This document shows positions 29,016-64,000 of a stretch of 64,000 nucleotides of DNA, one piece after another (the stretch's first letter is position 1; the number at the start of each line of letters is the position of its first letter). Source of the stretch: Gammaproteobacteria bacterium (GTDB lineage Bacteria; Pseudomonadota; Gammaproteobacteria; Arenicellales; CAJQKF01); contig JAUIEZ010000002.1 of the NCBI GenBank assembly GCA_030429665.1, positions 31,120 through 95,119 on the forward strand, in the 5' to 3' direction. A program made the position numbers and the translations under genes. The notes beneath the pieces are model-generated. The model saw only the letters and a program-made list of their open reading frames with translations, ran no database searches and was not told the origin of the DNA.

Positions 29016-31492
29016 GGACCGCCCGGCTCACCGTTCGTTTCGCGCGCTGCGAAATCGCGCCGGCGCGCGGAGAATTCGATCAGCCGTTGCTCCGCGCGGC
29101 CGTTGACGGAATCGCCCGGAAAGCACCCGTCGTCGCCGCGTTCGCCGGCTTCGATGCCGGTCAGAAGCGCAATGCCGTCATCCACGTGGTCGATGGCGTA
29201 CACGTGAAAGCGGCCGTCGGCTACCGCCGCGACGACGTCGGCGCGCAACATGAGGTGCTTGACGTTGGCGCGCGGTATCACAACGCCTTGATCACCGGTC
29301 AGCTCGCGCGCATGGCAGCAATCGAAGAAACCCTCGATCTTCTCGTTCACGCCACCGATGGCCTGGATGCCGCCATGCTGGTTGACCGAACCGGTCACCG
29401 CCAGCGACTGGCGCAAGGGCACGCCGGCAAGGTCGGAAAGCAGCGCGAAGAGTTCCGCGGCCGACGCGCTGTCGCCCTCGACGCCGCCGTACGATTGCTC
29501 GAACACCAGGCTGGCGGACAACGACAGCGGTCGATCGGTGGCAAACCTGGCCCCCAGGTAGCTCGACAGGATCATGACACCCTTGGAATGTATCGGTCCG
29601 CCGAGCTCGACCTCCCGTTCGATGTCGACCACCTGTCCGTCGCCCACGCGGGTTCGCGCGCTGATGCGCGACGGTCGGCCGAAACCGTACTCGCCCAGGC
29701 CGATCACCGACAGGCCGTTGACGCGACCGACGTATTCGCCGGTCGTATCGACGAGGATCGTGCCGCGCCGGATCTCTTCCTGCATGCGCTCGCGAATTCG
29801 TCCGGAGCGCTCGTCGCGCTTGTCGATCGCCTGCTCCACGTCCACCCGGGTGACGAGATCGACCCGACCGTTCTTTCGTGCCCAGTACGCCGACTCGCGC
29901 AGTACGTCGCCGATACGGCCGACCCGCATCGACAGCTTCTCGTTGTCACTGGACAACCGAACCCCGTGCTCGATAACCGCGCCAATGGCGCCGCGGTCAA
30001 ATGCGGGCAGCGCCTCGCGACGAACCAGGGTGGCGATCAGCCGCGCATATTCGCGTTCGCTCTGGGCGCCGCGCGCCAGGCGGTCGTCGAAGTCGACCTG
30101 GACCTTGAAGAGGTCCGCGAACTCCGGGTCGAGCTCGGACAACAGGTAGTAGATCACGGGTTCACCGAGAAGTATCACCTTCACCGATAGCGGTATGGAC
30201 TGCGGCTCGAGGGTGGCGGTGGACATCAGGCCGAGGCTTTCGCCAAGCGGTTCCAGGCGCAGTTCGTGCGATCGAAGCGTGCGCTTGAGCGCCTCCCACG
30301 CGAACGGTTCGCGCAGTAACTTCAGGGCATCGACCAACAGGTAACCGCCATTCGCCCGGTGCAGCGTCCCGGGCCGGATCATCGTGAAGTCCGTTACGAG
30401 CGCCCCCTGCAGGGCGCGGTGCTCGATGCGTCCCAGCAGGTTGTTGTAGGTCGGGTTGTCCTCGTAGATGACCGGCGCGCCGTGATTTGCCGATCCCGGT
30501 GTCAACACGTTCACGCGGTAGCGGTTCGTCCACGACAGGTCGTCCGGGTCGCGAAGCGCCCGAGGCCCGAAAAGCATGGCGTTTTGCTTCGCGTCGGGGA
30601 GAAAGAGTTGAAAGTTGCCGACGATGTCCTGCTCGACCTGCGAGAGGTACTCGCTCACCTCGGCGATATCCGCGAAGGACTCGCGCAACGGCTCGAGCAG
30701 TTGCGCCACGACCGCCGCCGACATCTCCCGGTTCAGCGAGTCGATTTTGGCCCGACTGTCCCGCTGCCATTGCGGCAGGTGTCTGAACACCTGCACGAGC
30801 TCTTCCTGCAGTTCCTTGATGTCCGCCTGAATCCTTTGCCTCTGTGCTTCGGGTAGCTTCTCGAATGCTTCGGGATCGATCGTCTCGCCGTTTTTCACCG
30901 GCACCATCGTGATGCCCGACGGTGTTCGGATCATGGCGATATCGCGCGACTCCGCCTTGTGCTGCAACTCGCGCAGCGCGCGCTGGTGGCGATCGTTGAG
31001 GTCCACCTCGATGGCCTCGGCGCGCGTGCGGTACTCGTCGCTTTCGAAGATCGCCGGCAGCGCCCGGGATAATTCCGCGATCAGGTCGTTCATGGACTCG
31101 GCCAGGCGAATGCCCCGACCGGCGGGCAGCTGCATCACGCGCGGCTTGCGGTGGTCGTCGAAGTTGTTGACGTAGCACCATTCCGGGGGCACCGCTTCAG
31201 CGGCCGCCCGCTCGCGAGCGAACGCGTGCGCCAACGTGAGCTTGCCCACACCGGGCGGCCCCAGGAGAAACAGGTTGTAACCGTCCGAGCGCATGCCGAT
31301 GCCGAAGTCCAACGCGTCCACGGCCCGTTGCTGGCCGATGAATCCGGGCAGATCCTCGAGGTCGTCGGTACTGGCGCAGCCCAGTGCCTCGATGTCACAC
31401 CCCGGACGCAGCATGCCGGGCGCGAGCCGTTCAGCGGGCATCGGCAGTTCCTCCGGCAAGCGCCCGGCACGGCACTGGCGATCGTCGCGCAA
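29012..31492 (-). CDS. Lon-related (LonB-like) ATP-dependent protease
   Basis: 'LFLLGPPGVGKLTLAHAFA' Walker A; 'SYGGVEGDSASAAELFALLSDLAGVPLRQSLAVTGSVNQHGGIQAIGGVNEKIEGFFD' Lon-type Ser/Lys protease domain. Confidence 0.94.
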   Translation of the reverse strand: MRDDRQCRAGRLPEELPMPAERLAPGMLRPGCDIEALGCASTDDLEDLPGFIGQQRAVDALDFGIGMRSDGYNLFLLGPPGVGKLTLAHAFARERAAAEAVPPEWCYVNNFDDHRKPRVMQLPAGRGIRLAESMNDLIAELSRALPAIFESDEYRTRAEAIEVDLNDRHQRALRELQHKAESRDIAMIRTPSGITMVPVKNGETIDPEAFEKLPEAQRQRIQADIKELQEELVQVFRHLPQWQRDSRAKIDSLNREMSAAVVAQLLEPLRESFADIAEVSEYLSQVEQDIVGNFQLFLPDAKQNAMLFGPRALRDPDDLSWTNRYRVNVLTPGSANHGAPVIYEDNPTYNNLLGRIEHRALQGALVTDFTMIRPGTLHRANGGYLLVDALKLLREPFAWEALKRTLRSHELRLEPLGESLGLMSTATLEPQSIPLSVKVILLGEPVIYYLLSELDPEFADLFKVQVDFDDRLARGAQSEREYARLIATLVRREALPAFDRGAIGAVIEHGVRLSSDNEKLSMRVGRIGDVLRESAYWARKNGRVDLVTRVDVEQAIDKRDERSGRIRERMQEEIRRGTILVDTTGEYVGRVNGLSVIGLGEYGFGRPSRISARTRVGDGQVVDIEREVELGGPIHSKGVMILSSYLGARFATDRPLSLSASLVFEQSYGGVEGDSASAAELFALLSDLAGVPLRQSLAVTGSVNQHGGIQAIGGVNEKIEGFFDCCHARELTGDQGVVIPRANVKHLMLRADVVAAVADGRFHVYAIDHVDDGIALLTGIEAGERGDDGCFPGDSVNGRAEQRLIEFSARRRDFAARETNGEPGGP

Positions 31493-55097: not shown

Positions 55098-58000
55098 TTG
55101 AGGGTACACTTGGCCAAATCCCGCCACGACGAAACACTCTTGTCCGACAACGTAGATGAATGGCTGACGCGAATCGGCCTCCCGCAATACCGGGACGCAT
55201 TTCGCGAGAACGACCTGGAATGGGATCTCGTGCCCGATCTCGATGTCCAGACATTGAAGGACATCGGCGTGACGTCTGCCGGTCACCGCATGCGCATCCT
55301 CGACGCGGTGCGAAAGCTGCGCGCCGCGCGCGCGGACGAGTCGCCCGAACGAGAGGCTATCGGCGCGGATCAGGTCCAGGAAGAGCCGGACCGCCGCCAG
55401 GTGACGGTGATGTTCTGCGATCTCGTCGGCTCCACCGAGTTGTCGCAGATTCTCGATCCCGAGGATCTGCGCGAGGTGATGCGCGCCTACCAGGAAGCGT
55501 GCGCGCGGGCCATCGAGCGATTCGAGGGTTTCGTCGCGCGCTACATGGGCGACGGCGTGATGTCCTACTTCGGTTATCCCCGGGCCTTCGAGGACGCCGC
55601 CGAGCGCGCCGTGCTTTCCGGCCTCGCCGTGATCGAGGCCGTCGCCGAGCTCGATGCCCGGCTCGGACGGGCCAAGGGCATCGAGTTGGCGGTGCGGGTA
55701 GGCATCGCAACGGGCCCCGTCGTGGCGGGCGACCTCATCGGGCAGGGCGCCTCGCAGGAGCGCTCGGTGGTCGGCGAGACGCCCAACCTGGCGGCCCGGC
55801 TGCAGACCATCGCCCAGCCCGGTACCGTCGCCATCGCGCCGGAGACCCGGGCGTTGTGCGCGGCGCGCATCGTTTGCACGGAGCTCGGCGTCTTCACGCT
55901 GAAGGGCATCGCGAGACCGGTGCGCGCGTGGCGGGCGATGTCGCCGGCCGCGTCGACGGACCGGCTCGACGCCCGCGCCGACGAATCGCTGTCGGCGATT
56001 CGCGGACGAGAGGCGGAGCTCGAGGCGGTGCTCCGGGAATGGCACGCGGCCCGGGACGGCCGGGGGCGGCTGGTTCTCTTGTCCGGCGAACCGGGAATCG
56101 GCAAGTCGCGGATCGTGCAGGCGTTTCGCAGGCGGATCGCCGCGGACCAACACGAGACGGTGCGCTTTCAATGCTCCGCGCATCATGCCAACAGCGCGCT
56201 GTATCCGGTAATCAACCGGTTGAAGGTCGCCGCCGGGTTCTCCGACGGCGACGAGCCCGAACGCCAGCACGCCAAGCTGGCTCGGCTGCTCAAGCGAAGC
56301 GGCCGGCCGGGCGAGTCGGCGGCGGGGCTTTTCGCCTCGCTGCTGTCCGTGCCGCCGGTCGAAGGCCACGAGTTGCCGGAACTCCCGCCGCCGGTACTGA
56401 AGGAGCAGACGCTGGAGGCATTGCTCGAGTACTTTCTGCCCGCGTCGATGTCCATGCCGGCCGTCATCGAGCTCGAGGACGCGCACTGGATCGATCCGTC
56501 GACGCAGGAGTTGATGTCCATGCTGATCGATCGCCTGGGCGATCGGCCGGCGCTGGTGCTGGTCACCTTTCGCCCCGAGTTCCCTTGCCCGTGGACGGAC
56601 CGTCCCGACACCAGTTCGATCGCCCTGGACAACCTGACGCGCGACGAGAGTGAAGCCATCGTCAACGAGCTGTGCGGCGGGCGGGCGTTGCCGGACGATC
56701 TGCTCGAACAGATCGTGGCGAAAACGGACGGCGTGCCGTTGTTCGTCGAGGAGTTGACCAAGAACGTCCTGGAATCGGGTCTGCTTGTCGAATCCGACGG
56801 ACGGCTGCAACCCGTCGGCGAGTTGTCGTCGCTGTCGATTCCCGCATCGTTACAGGACTCGTTGATGGCGCGCCTGGACCGGCTCGGCCCGGTCAAGCGC
56901 CTGGCGCAGGTCGGCGCCGCCATCGGTCGGGAGTTTTCCCGGCAGTTGATCGGCGCCGCGACCGACATGGAGGGCGCGGCGCTGGACGCCGCGCTCGCCG
57001 AACTGGTGGATTCCGAGCTCGTGCATCAACGCAACGACGCGCATTCGTCGCGCTACCAGTTCAAGCATGCCCTGGTTCAGGACGCGGCCTACGCCAGCCT
57101 GCTTCGAAGCCGCCGCCAGTCGCTGCACCTGCGCCTGGCCGAAGTCTACAGCGATCACTTTCCCGAGATCGCCGAGACCCAGCCCGAGATGCTCGCGCGC
57201 CACTGGAGCGAGGGCGGCAGGCCGCTTGAAGCGGCGCTGTGCTGGTTGTCGGCCGGGAAGCGGGCCAGCCGGCGTTTCTCCAACGAGGAAGCCTTGAACC
57301 ACCTGAACAACGGGTTGGCGCTGGTGCCGGCATTGCCGGAGGGTACGCGTCGCGACGAAACCGAGCTGAAGCTGCGCGTCGCCCTCGGCACCGTGCTGCG
57401 GGTGCGCGCGGGGCCGGGCGCCGAGGTCACCCAGGAGAACTACAACCATGCCGTCGCCTTGTGCGAGCGGCTGCCGGTGTCGGCGGAGCACTTCGCCGCC
57501 ATGTGGGGCAAGTGGGTGAACGCGATGAACTTCAAGCCGGAGCTCGGACTGCAATGGACGGAACGATTGCAGGCGCTGGCGACCCAGCTCGACGACGCCG
57601 GATTCATGCTGCAGGCCCATCATGCGCAATGGACGACGCTGTTTCACATCGGTCGTTTCACCGAGGCGTATTCCCATACCGAGCGCGGCCTCGGCTACTA
57701 CGACGAGACGCTGCACCGTCACCACGCGGCGCTGTACGGCGGCCATGACCCGCGCGTGTGCGGCCGGGCGTTCGCGGCGCACGCGCTGTGGATGCTCGGC
57801 GCCTTCGACCGCTCGCTGGAATTCGCGCGCTCGAGCGCGCACTGGGGGCGCGCGCTCGACCACGCGGGCTCGCGGCTGCACGTGATCGAGGGACACTTGC
57901 TGCTGTACCAGTTTCGGCGCGAACCGGAAGCGCTGGCGCCGTGGCTCGACGAGCTGGACCGTATCTGCGCGGACAACGACCTGCCCGAGTACCGCGGCAA

Positions 58001-58502
58001 GCTGTTGTTCAACCGCGGCTGGCTGATCGCCTCGCGGGGCGATATCGAATCGGGCACGGTCATGATGCGCGAGGGCCTGGAGAACCAGCGCAGCGTCGGC
58101 AGCTACGAGGACATCCCCATGTTTTCCGAACGCCTGGCGGAAACGCTGGCGAAATCGGGCGAAACCGCCGCGGGCCTCGAGATGCTGGACAAGGCGCTGG
58201 CCCTGGCCGACGAGTACGGCTACAAGTACTGGCTTGCCGAGGTTCACCGCCGCAAGGGCGCATTGCTGGCGCAGGCGGGGCGAAGCGACGCCGCGCGAGA
58301 GAGTTTCCGCCGCGCGCTGGAGATCGCGCGCCTGCAGGGGGCAAAAACGCTGGAGCTTCGCGCGGAAACGTCCCTGGCGCGGCTTGGCGCGGGATCGGAG
58401 GACGCGTCGATCGACGCCGACAGCGTGAGAAACCTGATCGATTCCTTTACCGAGGACCTCGACTGCGTCGACCTGGTCGAGGCGCGTTCGCTGTTCGGCT
58501 AA
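55098..58502 (+). CDS. SAM-domain / class III nucleotidyl cyclase / AAA ATPase / TPR protein
   Basis: N-terminal SAM domain ('VDEWLTRIGLPQYRDAFRENDLEWDLVPDLDVQTLKDIGVTSAGHRMRILDAV'), cyclase ('VTVMFCDLVGSTELSQ', 'YMGDGVMSYFGYP'), ATPase ('LLSGEPGIGKSRIVQAF'), C-terminal TPR-like. Confidence 0.92.
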   Translation: MRVHLAKSRHDETLLSDNVDEWLTRIGLPQYRDAFRENDLEWDLVPDLDVQTLKDIGVTSAGHRMRILDAVRKLRAARADESPEREAIGADQVQEEPDRRQVTVMFCDLVGSTELSQILDPEDLREVMRAYQEACARAIERFEGFVARYMGDGVMSYFGYPRAFEDAAERAVLSGLAVIEAVAELDARLGRAKGIELAVRVGIATGPVVAGDLIGQGASQERSVVGETPNLAARLQTIAQPGTVAIAPETRALCAARIVCTELGVFTLKGIARPVRAWRAMSPAASTDRLDARADESLSAIRGREAELEAVLREWHAARDGRGRLVLLSGEPGIGKSRIVQAFRRRIAADQHETVRFQCSAHHANSALYPVINRLKVAAGFSDGDEPERQHAKLARLLKRSGRPGESAAGLFASLLSVPPVEGHELPELPPPVLKEQTLEALLEYFLPASMSMPAVIELEDAHWIDPSTQELMSMLIDRLGDRPALVLVTFRPEFPCPWTDRPDTSSIALDNLTRDESEAIVNELCGGRALPDDLLEQIVAKTDGVPLFVEELTKNVLESGLLVESDGRLQPVGELSSLSIPASLQDSLMARLDRLGPVKRLAQVGAAIGREFSRQLIGAATDMEGAALDAALAELVDSELVHQRNDAHSSRYQFKHALVQDAAYASLLRSRRQSLHLRLAEVYSDHFPEIAETQPEMLARHWSEGGRPLEAALCWLSAGKRASRRFSNEEALNHLNNGLALVPALPEGTRRDETELKLRVALGTVLRVRAGPGAEVTQENYNHAVALCERLPVSAEHFAAMWGKWVNAMNFKPELGLQWTERLQALATQLDDAGFMLQAHHAQWTTLFHIGRFTEAYSHTERGLGYYDETLHRHHAALYGGHDPRVCGRAFAAHALWMLGAFDRSLEFARSSAHWGRALDHAGSRLHVIEGHLLLYQFRREPEALAPWLDELDRICADNDLPEYRGKLLFNRGWLIASRGDIESGTVMMREGLENQRSVGSYEDIPMFSERLAETLAKSGETAAGLEMLDKALALADEYGYKYWLAEVHRRKGALLAQAGRSDAARESFRRALEIARLQGAKTLELRAETSLARLGAGSEDASIDADSVRNLIDSFTEDLDCVDLVEARSLFG

Positions 58503-58539: not shown

Positions 58540-59238
58540 TCACTCCTGGTGCGGACCGACCATGGCCATGCGCGAGGCCATCGCCATGCGGGACGTCATG
58601 GCCATGCGCGAGTTCATCGCCATGCGCGACGCCATGGCCATTCGCGAACCGCCGCCCGCGCCGCCGTCCTGTTCCAGCGTCATGAACACGGGCTCCAGGA
58701 GGATATTCTCGAACTTGCCCACCTCGATATCGACCACCATGGACAGGTCGAGCCGGTCCACCTTCCAGACCCTGATATCCTTGGCGAACTGGAAGCCCTT
58801 GCTCGCCAGTCCCGTATCGCGAACCATGAATGACGATGCGCCGGACTTGCCCTTGTGGGAATCCGTGTCCTCGCCCTCGCCCCATACCACGTAGACGAGC
58901 GGCCGCGGCATCTTGTAGTAGTGCCCCTCGTAGGTAAAGCTGTAGATGCGCGCGAGGTTCGGCAGAAGGTCGGGCTCCCGCAGATTTTCCTTACCCTTGC
59001 CGTAGACCTTGCGATTGGACGCCATTTTTCGCCGCAGCGTGGCTTCGAGCGTCGGCGGCGGCATGAACGCGTTGTCCTCTCCGCGCGAATCGTCCTTCTC
59101 CTTGCTGTCGCTGCGATAGTCCGTCTTCAGCAGGTCGCCCAGCTTCAGCTCCAGGCTGTGGAAGCGCTTGCCGAACAGGTAGATCTTGGTGGGTTCGTAA
59201 AGATCCTCGAACAGTTCTTCCGCCGCGTCGAATGCCAT
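58540..59238 (-). CDS. Uncharacterised 232-aa protein with C-terminal (SRMAMx)5 repeats; candidate RiPP precursor/substrate
   Basis: 'MAFDAAEELFEDLYEPTKIYLFGKRFHSLELKLGDLLKTDY...MTLEQDGGAGGGSRMAMASRMAMNSRMAMTSRMAMASRMAMVGPHQE'. Last gene of the YcaO-TfuA-peptidase block. Start 59238 chosen over 59292. Confidence 0.8.
   Translation of the reverse strand: MAFDAAEELFEDLYEPTKIYLFGKRFHSLELKLGDLLKTDYRSDSKEKDDSRGEDNAFMPPPTLEATLRRKMASNRKVYGKGKENLREPDLLPNLARIYSFTYEGHYYKMPRPLVYVVWGEGEDTDSHKGKSGASSFMVRDTGLASKGFQFAKDIRVWKVDRLDLSMVVDIEVGKFENILLEPVFMTLEQDGGAGGGSRMAMASRMAMNSRMAMTSRMAMASRMAMVGPHQE
58558..58647 (-). repeat. Five tandem 18-bp coding units encoding SRMAMx
   Basis: Plus-strand reading: (nnn-cat-ggc/cgc-cat-gcg/tcg-cga/gga) x5; variable sixth residue A, N, T, A, V. 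Confidence 0.95.
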
Positions 59239-59305
59239 ACCCGTTCCCCATCTATTGGTAATTATTCGATTCGGCCCGCGATGCGCGCGCATTGCCGCCG
59301 ATCTT

Positions 59306-60556
59306 TCAGTTCATATCGAGATAGATTCCGTGACGCGCGAACACGTTCTCGATCTCGACCCGATACCATCCCCCGGTCCGGGCGCGATCCGCCTCCAGCA
59401 GAAGTCCTAGGATATCACCAAAATGCACGTCCCACGTCAGGCGGCTCCAGACATCGGCGAGGTACAGGCCCAGCGTGTCCCGCGCATCGACAAGCGCGTG
59501 CTTGAAGCCCACGGGCGCGCGGGCGAACGCGGCGTCAAAGCGCCTGTCCACGGCCTCGAGCTGCGCCGCGTCCTTCACACCGCGGCGCGACATGTCGTCG
59601 AGCGCCGGGTCGATCAGCCGCCGGTCCACGAGATTCTGCTGGAATATCTCGACCAGCAGGTCGAACACGGCGCCGGTCAACGGCAGTGACACGTCGTGGC
59701 GCTCCCGGTGGCTGAGCTGGTCCGGCGGCGTCGATAGATCGGCGACGTCGCTCATCGTGAGGTCGTTGCTGGCCATGCGGATCTGTTTCGTGGGCGACAC
59801 CTCGCCCACCCGGTTCAACACGTTGCGTGGATACAGGTCGCCGCTGGTGCGTTCGAGCAGCAGGTCGACGATGGAGTCGAAATGCAGCAGGGCGATGATG
59901 CCGACGAGGTCGCTCGCCGATTCGTGGAAGGCGAAGAAGCTCGTCGTCGCCTTGCCCGGCGGCGGCAGGCCGATCTTCGCGTACAGCATCGAATGCCCGA
60001 ACTCGTGCGCGAGGACGTCGAAGTTGAGGTTCATCGGGAACTTGCGCCCGCTATCGTCCAGCCGGTAGCCGGCTTCGATGAAGCCGTAGCCGGAGTGCGC
60101 GTTGTCCCAGTCCAGCCACGGCACCAGTTCCATGCGCGGCAGGTCTTCGGAGAAGTGCCACTCGATCGGCGCGCCGAAATAGGCCTCCCAGATGTCCATC
60201 ACCCAGTGCACGGTGCCGAACATGTGCGCCGCCTCGAACTGGTGTGTCCCCGGTCGCAGGTGATCGAAGTGGCCGTCGGCGCCGGGCGTTGCGGGCGCGT
60301 TCATCGCGCCGCGGTAGGGCGGCATGTCGGGAAATTCGTAGGGCGTCTTGGCGACGGCGTCGGCCACGTACATGCGCGCGTCTTCGGGGCCCGGTTGAAT
60401 CTCCCGCGGCGGCGTCGATACCCAGACGGTTTCCGGCTCCTCGAAGCCCGGCAGAATCGGCGGCTGCGGGTACAGCAGGAAGCGCGTGCCCGAGCCGCTG
60501 AAGTCGAGCTCGAGCTGGGAAAGCTCGCGGGCCGCGCGGGGAATGCGGTAGATCAT
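59306..60556 (-). CDS. Thermolysin-like (gluzincin) zinc metallopeptidase
   Basis: 'NFDVLAHEFGHSMLYAKIGLPPPGKATTSFFAFHESASDLVG': HExxH plus a downstream E within HESASD, as in M4-like peptidases. No signal peptide visible. Confidence 0.8.
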   Translation of the reverse strand: MIYRIPRAARELSQLELDFSGSGTRFLLYPQPPILPGFEEPETVWVSTPPREIQPGPEDARMYVADAVAKTPYEFPDMPPYRGAMNAPATPGADGHFDHLRPGTHQFEAAHMFGTVHWVMDIWEAYFGAPIEWHFSEDLPRMELVPWLDWDNAHSGYGFIEAGYRLDDSGRKFPMNLNFDVLAHEFGHSMLYAKIGLPPPGKATTSFFAFHESASDLVGIIALLHFDSIVDLLLERTSGDLYPRNVLNRVGEVSPTKQIRMASNDLTMSDVADLSTPPDQLSHRERHDVSLPLTGAVFDLLVEIFQQNLVDRRLIDPALDDMSRRGVKDAAQLEAVDRRFDAAFARAPVGFKHALVDARDTLGLYLADVWSRLTWDVHFGDILGLLLEADRARTGGWYRVEIENVFARHGIYLDMN

Positions 60557-60586
60557 CGGCGCGCGCCCGTGCGCAATACGAAGCTC

Positions 60587-61831
60587 TCAATCATCTGGAT
60601 GACTGTACACGTATTCACGCAGGACGAGTTCGTGAAACCCGTCGCCGTCGAGGCCCCCGAGGCTCGCCGCGTAGGCGTCGATATCGTCGGGCATTTCGCG
60701 TCCCAGCCGCTCGCTGAAATACCAGTCCATGAGCTGCAGCCGCTCAAGCTCGTCGAGCGCGCCGACGTTCACGATCCGGCGCGCGAGCACGCGCGCCTTG
60801 TCGTCGGCGCGCCGCTTGAAGTTCTCGAGGTCGCCGCTGTCGGCCAGCCGCGCCAGCATCCGTTCCGTGAGCCAGTGCGCCGGTGCGGCATCGCGATAAC
60901 CGGCAATCGACCCGCCGAGCAACGCGTCCCGGTACCACGCGTCCCGTACCGCCTCGTCGCTATCCGCCGGCGCGGCCTCGGCACCGTCGCCGAAGGCCTC
61001 GTCGAGGACCAATTCGCGCAAGGCGAAGAAATCGTCGCCGAGCAGGCGCAGTTCGTCGAAGACGGGCGACGGCGGCGCGGGCGCGCAGGACAACTCGTTC
61101 ACCGCCCGGTCCCACAGGGTCGTTTGCTCGAAGCGGAACGCGACCGGCGCGGCCGGTTCGTCGCCGCGCGACGCCAGCCGCTCGAGAAGGCGGGTCGCGT
61201 CGTCGCGTTTCACGCTCACCTGGTGCGAGGGAATCCACGCCTTCAGCGCCTCCAGCTCGGTCGACAGGCCGTCGAGCTCGCGCGCGTCATCGAACAACGT
61301 ATCGTAGCCGCGCTCGGCGTAGAAACGTCTCCGGCACAACTCGACGAGCGCATCGCGCGTGGCACCCCGTATGACGCCGGCGCGCGCCGCGGCGGCGAGC
61401 GTCGCCCGCACGTCGACCAGCGCCGTGGAAAGACAACGATAGCCGAGCGTCGCCGGTCCGTGGACGATGGCCACCTCGTCGTCGTTTTCGAACGCGTCTT
61501 CGTAGGGCGGGAAGCGGCCCTCGCGGTAAGCATTGAACACGGTGCCCACCCCCTGCATGCCGAAGTCGCCGAGTTCCGCCGCGCGCAAGGCGCCCATGCT
61601 CGCCGCGCCGTAGACGCGTATGCCCCGGTGCATGGCCCACAGGATTTCCTTGTGCCACACGGACGGCACCTGGTTGAAGTAACCGTCGACGATGGCGATC
61701 GTGCGGGGCTCGAGGGTGATCGCCGCGCGGTAGACGTCACCGTAACGCGCCGGCGGCAGGTAACGCGCGTCGAGTATTTCCCGGCAGTCGGCGGCGTCCA
61801 TCGTCGGGCCGATGAAGACGACGTCGTTCAC
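60587..61831 (-). CDS. tfuA: TfuA-like protein
   Basis: 414 aa; 'VFIGPTMDAADCREILDARYLPPARYGDVYRAA...IAIVDGYFNQVPSVWHKEILWAMHRGIRVYGAASMGALRAAELGDFGMQGVGTVFNAYREGRFPPYEDAFENDDEVAIVHGP' is the characteristic TfuA core. GTG start at 61831 overlaps the ycaO stop. Confidence 0.92.
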   Translation of the reverse strand: MNDVVFIGPTMDAADCREILDARYLPPARYGDVYRAAITLEPRTIAIVDGYFNQVPSVWHKEILWAMHRGIRVYGAASMGALRAAELGDFGMQGVGTVFNAYREGRFPPYEDAFENDDEVAIVHGPATLGYRCLSTALVDVRATLAAAARAGVIRGATRDALVELCRRRFYAERGYDTLFDDARELDGLSTELEALKAWIPSHQVSVKRDDATRLLERLASRGDEPAAPVAFRFEQTTLWDRAVNELSCAPAPPSPVFDELRLLGDDFFALRELVLDEAFGDGAEAAPADSDEAVRDAWYRDALLGGSIAGYRDAAPAHWLTERMLARLADSGDLENFKRRADDKARVLARRIVNVGALDELERLQLMDWYFSERLGREMPDDIDAYAASLGGLDGDGFHELVLREYVYSHPDD

Positions 61832-63087
61832 GTGACTAGCGCCGCCAGCTCCGCGGGCAGCTTGCGCGCCGCGCGCGCGCGGCGTCCGGCCACGCCCGTC
61901 TGCCCGTGGTGCCCGTGCGCGCCTTCCAGCGACGGAACGATCACCTTGACCACCGGCAAACCGATATCCGGCTTTTCCAGGTCCACCGCCAGCACCTGCC
62001 GGACGCCGATCGCGCGCAGGCGCTCCAGCGACTCGCCGAGATCCCCGGCGATCGTCGCGTTGTCGAAACCGGGCGCATCCTCGAATCGCTGCGACGGCCG
62101 GTGGCGCGCGGACAGCGCGGCGCAATGCTCGCGGCGCCGGCGTCGAGATGCGTCAAGATACGGCGCCGCGCCGATGTCGTCGCGGGAACCGGCAATGAAG
62201 GTCGTGCGCGCCTGGGCGGCCTCGGTCAGCGCGCGGGCCAGGGCGACCTCGCGGGCGGCGTGGCAGCCGGCGCCGAACTCGGGGTCCGCCCAGTCGGACG
62301 CGTCACCGATCGCCAGGCAGACGAAACAGGCGATGCGGGCATCGGAGGTGACATCCCAGATCCTGACCGTGACGCCGGCGTCCGCGAAACGGTCGAGCAA
62401 CGACCGGCACACGGGATCGTCCACGCTCTCGACGTCGACACCCCGCGCATCCTGCTCGCGCACCGGGCTGTGACGCCAGAGGGACTCGGCATCCCGCTCC
62501 ACCACCTCGAAGACGCCATGGCACGCGGCCTCCTCGAAGGTGTTCCCGGACGCCAGGCCGTTGGTATCCGCGGCGAAGTGCCCGCTGCCGGGGGGCAGCG
62601 GCAGCGTGTAATTGGTGCTCACCATCTCGAACGGCACCCACGCCCGCGTGTCGTCGAGCAGGTTGCCCGATTCGATCCAGAAGATCGGCACATGCGAATC
62701 GAAGCGGCCGGCGCCGGCGCGCGGCAGCTCGTCCAAATCGGCAAGCACCCGTCCGTCGGCCTCAAGCTCGGCGGCCGATCCGAACAACAGCGGCAGCCCC
62801 ACGTGCTCCGCGTGCCAGGTTTCGACCGACTCCATGACCGCCGACGCCTTCGCCGCAGACAGCTCCACGCCCTTGCCCTGGGACACGGAGATGGACCGCG
62901 AATTGGGACGCACCGCCATGGCCACGGGAATCCCCAGGCGATCGAGCCCGGTGATGTTGGACACCCGCGTGATCCCCAGCTTCCCGAACCACGGCTTCGC
63001 CCGCGCCAGCGTTTCCTCGGGCGAAACGGCGCGGTGAGTCCCCGTCCGGTAGAGCTTGTTTCCCTTGTGCTGAGCTGAATCGTTCAC
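61828..63087 (-). CDS. ycaO: YcaO-domain cyclodehydratase/thioamidase-type protein
   Basis: 419 aa; 'GKGVELSAAKASAVMESVETWHAEH', 'NGLASGNTFEEAACHGVFEVVERDAESLW', 'GCHAAREVALARALTEAAQARTTFIAGSRDD'. Ends KLPAELAALVT, without a PxPxP terminus. Confidence 0.94.
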   Translation of the reverse strand: MNDSAQHKGNKLYRTGTHRAVSPEETLARAKPWFGKLGITRVSNITGLDRLGIPVAMAVRPNSRSISVSQGKGVELSAAKASAVMESVETWHAEHVGLPLLFGSAAELEADGRVLADLDELPRAGAGRFDSHVPIFWIESGNLLDDTRAWVPFEMVSTNYTLPLPPGSGHFAADTNGLASGNTFEEAACHGVFEVVERDAESLWRHSPVREQDARGVDVESVDDPVCRSLLDRFADAGVTVRIWDVTSDARIACFVCLAIGDASDWADPEFGAGCHAAREVALARALTEAAQARTTFIAGSRDDIGAAPYLDASRRRRREHCAALSARHRPSQRFEDAPGFDNATIAGDLGESLERLRAIGVRQVLAVDLEKPDIGLPVVKVIVPSLEGAHGHHGQTGVAGRRARAARKLPAELAALVT

Positions 63088-63256: not shown

Positions 63257-64000
63257 CTATTCGAGCAGTCTTTTAGCGTTGTGGATGTATCGAATATAGG
63301 ATGCGCGACCAGACCAACTGTTATGGCGAGTATCTTTTAGGGCGCTATGGTAAATATTCTTTGTTGCGCGCAGCTTCGAGCCGACAAGAACCACGCCAGT
63401 TACAACCTTGTTTTGAGAACCTTTGTATATTCGATGCTTGTGGTGGGTGTATTCATTGCGACGTATTAAGCTATTTGCTCGTCGAAGCAAATTCCTATTC
63501 AATCCCTTCATTGTGATCGTTAAATCATCGACATACAAAGTCATCGAAGCATTAGCTGATTTTACGATATCGTTAATCTCGTCAAACATGCGTTTGTTCA
63601 CCCAAAAAGCGAGCGCCGTGCTGCACGGACTACCTTTGGGGATCGCATCTTGGTGGGTTAAGAGATCAGCCAGTATTTCAGCGATATCATTTGAGCACTC
63701 CATGTCTCGATTGAAAAATTCTTTAACCCTTGTTCTTGGTGTCGACCGGAAGAATGAACCAATATCAGTTTTGACCATTCCAAATTGGCTTCCGTTTCGA
63801 TAATGTGCGAGAGCATTGGTTACATTGGATCGGCCTCGCCGTCCTGAGTGAAGATATTCGGGAAGTTCGAGTCGACTCAGCAGGGATTGAGTCCGATCAT
63901 GGACTCGCCTGAGTGCTCCAACTGGAGGTGTGAACGTTTTGCCGTTTTTGTGTATTTTTTTGTACTTTCCGTTTTCTACTAGTTGCAATAGTTTTCCAGG
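63257..64000 (-). CDS. Retron-type reverse transcriptase, 5' end truncated by window edge
   Basis: 'NVTNALAHYRNGSQFGMVKTDIGSFF' (NAxxH), 'MTLYVDDLTITM' (YVDD), 'NKVVTGVVLVG' (VTG). The frame stays open through base 64000 (PGKLLQLVENGKYKKI...), so the TTG at 63988 is not the real start. Confidence 0.88.
   Translation of the reverse strand, partial: PGKLLQLVENGKYKKIHKNGKTFTPPVGALRRVHDRTQSLLSRLELPEYLHSGRRGRSNVTNALAHYRNGSQFGMVKTDIGSFFRSTPRTRVKEFFNRDMECSNDIAEILADLLTHQDAIPKGSPCSTALAFWVNKRMFDEINDIVKSANASMTLYVDDLTITMKGLNRNLLRRANSLIRRNEYTHHKHRIYKGSQNKVVTGVVLVGSKLRATKNIYHSALKDTRHNSWSGRASYIRYIHNAKRLLE

Follow-up and report, generated by a model that had tools for sequence, protein, structure and literature searches.

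A conserved proteobacterial YcaO-TfuA module with a repeat-tailed candidate substrate, a predicted thermolysin-superfamily peptidase and a class III cyclase

What does a YcaO-TfuA enzyme pair modify when its genes stand beside those for a peptidase and for a protein ending in short tandem repeats, and what would the product be used for? The question is raised by a stretch of 64,000 nucleotides (the window; positions 31,120 to 95,119 of contig JAUIEZ010000002.1, assembly GCA_030429665.1) from a gammaproteobacterium of the Arenicellales, which is part of contig C127 in a 5.0-Mb draft genome and whose right end is the contig end. On its minus strand, four genes encode YcaO, TfuA, a predicted peptidase (PEP) and a repeat protein (REP), and comparison with other genomes shows that they are part of a conserved five-gene bacterial module whose fifth member (CYC) is a class III cyclase. 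We give even weight to the reading that REP is the substrate of both YcaO-TfuA and PEP and that the product is used inside the cell. The four genes and their spacing had been described in a first-pass annotation made from the letters alone, and both were confirmed: all four open reading frames are unbroken, YcaO and TfuA overlap by 4 nt, gaps of 30 nt and 67 nt separate TfuA from PEP and PEP from REP, Pfam identifies YcaO and TfuA, and translation recovers the HEFGH...E peptidase and the 232-aa protein with five SRMAMx units at its end.

The proposal that the co-occurrence of the four families be checked across genomes was strongly borne out. In gamma- and alphaproteobacteria, four-gene loci were found in two sets (43 and 12), and all 55 have the identical order YcaO-TfuA-PEP-REP on a single strand; some come from close relatives, so that 55 loci do not represent 55 independent events. 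REP was present in 10 of 100 relatives searched, and tblastn around REP matches recovered the module with its order kept across other genera and families. The association held whichever bait was used. With a PEP profile as sole bait in 399 genomes of the phylum, all six full-length matches beyond the own genome lay within YcaO-TfuA-PEP-REP, as did nearly all of about 34 good PEP matches among 249 genomes of one alphaproteobacterial family. A REP profile search of a 298-genome sample of one order gave 13 further loci, twelve being full four-gene units and one a REP remnant (L139:8497-8688 in genome G556, a degraded single-tail copy without other module genes). Carriers include Sinorhizobium meliloti Ak57 (on pSymB), Phyllobacterium zundukense and Mesorhizobium WSM1497; the distribution is patchy, some copies are on plasmids, and the genes flanking the module elsewhere are mostly ordinary metabolic ones. 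A viral origin was ruled out, since no homologues of the module were found among the viral contigs searched.

Some loci depart from the common arrangement. Genome G076 holds two copies, both at contig edges, one comprising YcaO-TfuA-PEP (L085) and the other PEP-REP-CYC without visible YcaO (L020), and in one genome an amidohydrolase-like gene (616 aa; L015:10649-12499) is inserted between PEP and REP. In Rhizobium and G192, REP is followed immediately by genes for small proteins of unassigned family (L060:8974-9312, L027:8450-8782, L025:582-1004), the one scanned having no Pfam match.

The fifth member, CYC (55098-58502, plus strand; 1134 aa), was absent from the gene block of the first-pass annotation. 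It is convergent with REP across 37 nt and contains, according to Pfam, a SAM domain, a class III adenylate/guanylate cyclase domain, an AAA_16 (STAND-like) ATPase and a TPR-type C-terminus. The Guanylate_cyc domain scores 66.9 bits against a cut-off of 21.9, and the D, D, N and R residues of class III enzymes are all present. A cyclase gene lies at most 1 kb from the module in 50 of 52 evaluable loci (42 of 43 in the first set, the exception being at a contig edge, and 8 of 10 evaluable loci in the second). Genomes of 2.8-6.4 Mb carry 8-36 cyclase domains each, so that chance adjacency is expected in only a few per cent of cases per locus. Two architectures (cyclase-AAA-TPR and cyclase-TPR) and three placements (upstream on the same strand, convergent downstream, and downstream on the same strand) were observed. 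With a class III cyclase as part of the module, the earlier description of an unusually minimal pathway is not supported, and because the additional enzyme is of a signalling type that makes cyclic nucleotides, the product may serve as a signal within the cell and not as an exported antibiotic.

The candidate substrate or precursor, REP (58540-59238, minus strand; 232 aa), matches no Pfam or NCBIfam family at E<=1 and no sequence among solved structures; its start was placed at the ATG at 59238 in preference to a 250-aa open reading frame on the basis of the aligned N-termini of homologues (MALDP/MAFDA). According to family alignments, homologues of about 140-310 aa combine a conserved N-terminal domain (residues ~1-190 in the window; consensus ARIYSFSYEGxYYKLPxP ... 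DIRVWxxDxxDxSxxxD ... ILLE) with a variable C-terminal tail. The window tail, with five tandem hexapeptides SRMAM[A/N/T/V] at 58558-58647 (minus strand, from translation), reads SRMAMA-SRMAMN-SRMAMT-SRMAMA-SRMAMV-GPHQE. Pairwise comparison of the SRMAM codons across these units gave 14 synonymous and 0 nonsynonymous codon differences, indicating that the peptide sequence and not the DNA is being maintained; a same-genus relative has four units instead of five.

Across the family, the tail takes the form either of 3-13 repeats of a 5-7-residue unit or of one conserved single-copy sequence. The units of the repeat tails are SRMAMx (in 4-5 copies), ARSKMA, SRGKMA (6), SRATMA (4), TGRSMM (4), QSRAMM (12-13), RGMSV (3), SGARV (up to ~10), SGAKV, SGGRV (7-9), SGKRV (4), SGSRV (11), SGSKV, SGANL (7), GASVR (7-9), NARGM/NARGA (7), YSGGKA (5-6), TSRADL (6) and LSRSGGx (3). 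One or two Arg/Lys residues occur in most repeat units and none in SGANL. The longest repeat tail, at L118:8583-9569 in genome G998, has about 13 units, mostly QSRAMM, in a protein whose REP domain is too diverged for the profile. The single-copy tail, found in 24 loci with AAA-type cyclases (for example LPGKRSPTMYASKMTMGHRGGRL or GSRSPMAYAQVMALAPQR), is conserved almost like an enzyme motif. Chance low complexity was ruled out as an explanation of the tail by its family-wide presence and the synonymous-only codon differences, and copper or metal chelation by Met repeats was rejected as a general role because Met is scarce or absent in many tails (SGARV, SGGRV, YSGGKA). The idea that SRMAM imitates the Arg81-Met82 loop of uL16 was also set aside, given that only two residues are common and most tails lack Arg-Met. 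REP, which lies in the same unit as YcaO-TfuA in 55 loci and joins a domain to a hypervariable tail, may be the leader-and-core precursor of a ribosomally synthesized and post-translationally modified peptide (RiPP); it is large for such a substrate, and its modification is a prediction.

The nature of that modification can be approached from the enzymes. The YcaO gene (61828-63087, minus strand; 419 aa; PF02624, E=4e-77) encodes a predicted ATP-dependent backbone-modifying enzyme whose closest solved structure is the archaeal YcaO MJ1094 (1.8e-30). In 61 members, residues E86, E89, H190, E194, E197, R198, E289, A290, R294 and R302, which match the ATP/Mg site, are invariant or nearly so, and the Met/His/Ala residues favoured in TfuA-linked YcaO proteins (PMC8120280) are apparently present at positions 85/190/290 in most members, with numbering matched by inspection only. 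The TfuA gene (60587-61831, minus strand; 414 aa, GTG start; PF07812, E=3.8e-43) encodes the putative sulfur-delivery partner, which matches PDB 6xp8 (6e-30 over residues 4-219) and consists of a core (~1-220) followed by a C-terminal extension of unassigned fold. Sulfur is supplied by TfuA through hydrolysis of thiocarboxylated ThiS (PMC8939145, PMC13063428). The same-genus relative carries a separate second TfuA gene (G002:C39:25247-25606). Adjacent domains and conserved YcaO ATP-site residues place the pair among putative YcaO-TfuA thioamidation enzymes; the cut-offs of the McrA thioglycine equivalogs TIGR03266 (233.4 < 365 bits) and NF033432 (194.8 < 235.2 bits) were not reached, nor was that of the E. 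coli-type YcaO NF040716 (25.4 < 700 bits), with which an adjacent TfuA is also at odds. No RiPP recognition element or PqqD-like match was found at E<=1 in YcaO, TfuA, PEP or REP with Pfam and NCBIfam.

Tail composition bears on the same point. None of 71 tails contains Cys, and in the four loci with (NARGM/A)7 tails the repeats are devoid of Ser and Thr too, so that azolines cannot form there. The C-terminal PxPxP was seen in none of the 61 YcaO proteins, and no E1/ocin-ThiF partner or dehydrogenase gene was noted in the annotated loci. Tail composition, the absence of PxPxP and the missing partner genes together ruled out a linear azol(in)e reading, as in thiazole/oxazole-modified microcins (TOMMs). 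Thioamidation, which the first reading had put forward, is the best-supported option given the MJ1094-like YcaO, its invariant ATP/Mg site, the Cys-free tails and the sulfur supply through TfuA; a thioamide is probably formed, in preference to an azoline or amidine, and REP is probably the substrate of the YcaO-TfuA pair.

The PEP gene (59306-60556, minus strand; 416 aa) is predicted to encode a cytosolic-looking metallopeptidase of a new subfamily within the thermolysin superfamily. The zinc-binding motif HEFGH occupies residues 184-188 (59993-60007, minus strand), the downstream Glu is E212 in HESASD, and HExGH...E is retained in every homologue checked. The window protein matches no Pfam or NCBIfam family at E<=1, several other members give weak Pfam M4/M36 matches (best E=0.027), no member reaches the cut-off of PF01447 (family M4), and a search of solved-structure sequences returned a chance match only. 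Profile comparison by hhalign aligned PEP with an open reading frame at 99.2% probability (1.5e-19), the latter itself matching Pfam M4 at 1.1e-3, just below the cut-off. As judged from these profiles and from the HExxH...E motif, PEP is distantly homologous to thermolysin (M4) and would work in a similar way; it differs from it in lacking an evident signal or propeptide, in its sub-cut-off scores and in its own conserved blocks; because no obvious signal peptide was seen, it would act in the cytosol. A PEP homologue with 45% identity is encoded on a plasmid of Nostoc sp. UHCC 0302 (L058:8001-17197) in a different cluster without YcaO, together with two ferritin-like proteins, a radical SAM protein, an FAD-type protein and a 406-aa protein ending GGMSSRMNTNRTRREM, which is perhaps another substrate-peptidase pairing.

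The earlier view of PEP as a maturation enzyme is plausible; we lean towards REP as the protein on which PEP would act. If REP were instead to remain whole as a regulator or scaffold, its tail would receive a thioamide or another modification in situ, as happens in McrA or uL16, and PEP would be an unlinking or quality-control protease. The large conserved domain, a single-copy tail nearly as conserved as an enzyme motif, and the action of YcaO enzymes on whole proteins, such as uL16 at Met82 beside Arg81 (PMC13063428), are all in keeping with such protein modification, which we nevertheless regard as rather improbable, since concerted, fast-changing repeats better suit the release of many small units than a single site, and a dedicated PEP gene adjoins REP in nearly all loci.

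A further clue comes from the genes that stay together when others are missing. PEP is missing from two Paracoccus plasmid loci, and in G362 (97% complete) it was found neither in the locus nor in the genome, and REP and CYC occur together in all of these as well as in the Rhizobium leguminosarum group, G879 and G079, where YcaO-TfuA is missing from the locus. This persistence suggests that REP works with the cyclase and that YcaO-TfuA and PEP carry out maturation. It also bears on the possibility that the product is an exported, thioamidated RiPP natural product (an antimicrobial, a metallophore or a cell-cell signal) that leaves through a housekeeping transporter, the cyclase only regulating expression. 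Actinobacterial YcaO-TfuA pairs do make RiPP natural products, a needed exporter is often absent from known thioamide clusters (PMC6511847, PMC8120280), and the patchiness and plasmid location of the module would fit; against export, no exporter or immunity gene recurs across the 55 loci, the cyclase is kept even where YcaO-TfuA is lost, REP at 140-310 aa is far above the typical precursor size, and it has no obvious signal peptide as judged by eye. We consider export unlikely, and the missing exporter and signal peptide suggest an intracellular product.

A further alternative starts from the cyclase as a sensor: were the module to serve in conflict or defence, its STAND-like AAA/TPR cyclase would perceive infection or stress and signal to or activate PEP, which would free a pre-armed toxic peptide from REP. 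A sensor ATPase, a protease and a cleavable substrate follow this logic, the patchy occurrence and plasmids are compatible with it, and in the window the module adjoins a reverse transcriptase gene. This gene (63257-64000, minus strand), directly upstream of YcaO and cut by the contig end, has RT_VI (3.1e-65) as its best PADLOC model and is of the retron type. The reading seems distinctly improbable given that the cyclase matches PycC models merely as a class III cyclase and that neighbours elsewhere are mostly metabolic; the absence of a PADLOC match for YcaO, TfuA, PEP or REP ruled out a known defence system.

It is reasonable to suppose that REP would be a ribosomally made substrate in which the conserved N-terminal domain serves as an integral leader for recognition and the short C-terminal tail, which in most lineages is repetitive, forms the working part. 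YcaO, with sulfur delivered by TfuA, would swap backbone oxygens of the tail for sulfur, and the M4-like PEP would cut the modified tail loose, giving 5-7-residue peptides or short concatemers in the repeat lineages. The product, or REP itself, would then control the partner cyclase (class III with an AAA/TPR or TPR sensor) as a switch from modified peptide to cyclic nucleotide. Co-linearity in 55 of 55 loci, bait-independent searches, cyclase proximity and conserved active sites argue for REP as a substrate with an intracellular product. That the cyclase is the regulator or receptor of the product has slightly less than an even chance, and the complete circuit, a new kind of signalling in which cytosolic PEP would cut a thioamide-bearing short peptide from REP and this peptide would bind, as its ligand, a class III cyclase coupled to TPR/STAND parts, is speculative and less likely than not.

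Several observations weigh against the reading of REP as a putative substrate whose product would act within the cell; AlphaFold models of REP (pLDDT 31) and PEP (pLDDT 34) were unusable. In the Rhizobium leguminosarum group, G879 and G079, YcaO-TfuA is not beside PEP-REP-CYC and repeat tails remain, and no YcaO was found anywhere in G879 and G079 (each 88% complete), so that the tail may have a role free of thioamidation, or the enzymes may act in trans or lie on missing contigs; in draft genomes such absences are weak claims. Conversely, 24 loci have YcaO-TfuA and yet a single-copy tail, a poor fit to simple release of 5-7-mers. Both facts weaken the earlier identification of the repeats as YcaO substrate. 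L127 and L133 have no cyclase nearby. The catalytic (transition-state) Asn is kept in 28 of 29 TPR-type cyclases and in CYC of the window and is lost in 22 of 29 AAA-type cyclases, all from single-tail loci; some module cyclases may therefore be inactive, and cyclic nucleotide output is not universal. On the PEP tree, tail type (repeat or single) and cyclase architecture each changed once, so that the correlation of tail and cyclase is one event and its association with Asn loss is not independent support.

The module appears to be undescribed, a provisional statement since the literature pairing YcaO/TfuA with a cyclase or peptidase was covered mostly as open-access main texts. A 2021 survey reported more than a thousand proteobacterial YcaO-TfuA clusters by genome mining, and its main text has no mention of a cyclase, M4-like peptidase or repeat precursors (PMC8120280). 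RiPPER keeps precursors of 20-120 aa only (PMC6511847), and REP, at ~140-310 aa, would be overlooked by standard mining. A 2022 graspetide paper noted adenylate cyclases and YcaO-TfuA in another setting, the neighbourhood of branch-6 ATP-grasp loci, and no YcaO-TfuA product class listed in a 2026 paper (PMC13174530) fits the module. At the level of prediction, a large proteobacterial YcaO-TfuA group gains a defined substrate family, a peptidase family of its own and, unexpectedly, a cyclase partner. If REP is thioamidated, large two-part substrates come within the reach of YcaO-TfuA chemistry; should the link to the cyclase prove right, this would be the first case known to us of such a peptide as an internal signal; and the signalling circuit, if real, would link RiPP-type chemistry to second-messenger signalling. 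Natural variation in tail type, repeat number, YcaO, peptidase and cyclase Asn makes each step testable in cultivable rhizobia.

Among known systems, a receptor precedent is possibly offered by Rap-Phr of the RRNPP group, in which Arg-containing pentapeptides (QRGMI, ERGMT) occupy the TPR groove of cytosolic receptors (PMC3601957). The units RGMSV, NARGM and SRMAM resemble these pentapeptides in make-up, a likeness of composition only and not of homology, and TPR regions are present in the cyclases. The module differs in having no secretion/import (secretion being judged by eye), phosphatase or helix-turn-helix receptor, in a putative receptor fused to the cyclase and in SGANL units without Arg/Lys; no Rap/PlcR-type receptor family was among the matches, and TPR occurs only in the cyclase. 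The methanogen ycaO-tfuA pair for McrA thioglycine provides the closest solved relatives (MJ1094, 6xp8) and the best NCBIfam matches, whereas the present proteins score below the equivalogs, lack a methyl-coenzyme M reductase context and come with extra genes. In the Std-type RiPP of Streptomyces thermodiastaticus, YcaO-TfuA acts first on a C-terminal motif and peptidase trimming follows (PMC13174530), as proposed here, but Std has an S8/S53-carbamoyltransferase fusion, an MNIO, the precursor motif SNKEWQE and an MFS permease. Thiovarsolin of Streptomyces varsoviensis requires only varA, Y, T and O, its precursor ranges from non-repeating to five Arg-containing core repeats, and the VarA thioamide lies beside Arg (PMC6511847). 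It differs in a VarA within the 20-120-aa window, in having the heme-oxygenase VarO and ATP-grasp/amidinotransferase neighbours, in having no reported M4-like peptidase or cyclase, and in its APR/GPR-type repeat core, which is in no tail here, so that REP is set apart from VarA by repeat motif and cluster content. Both systems combine YcaO and TfuA with a precursor (a candidate one in the module) carrying a variable count of short Arg-containing repeats, and no specific protease or exporter is needed for thiovarsolin, which is the closest chemical precedent for the module.

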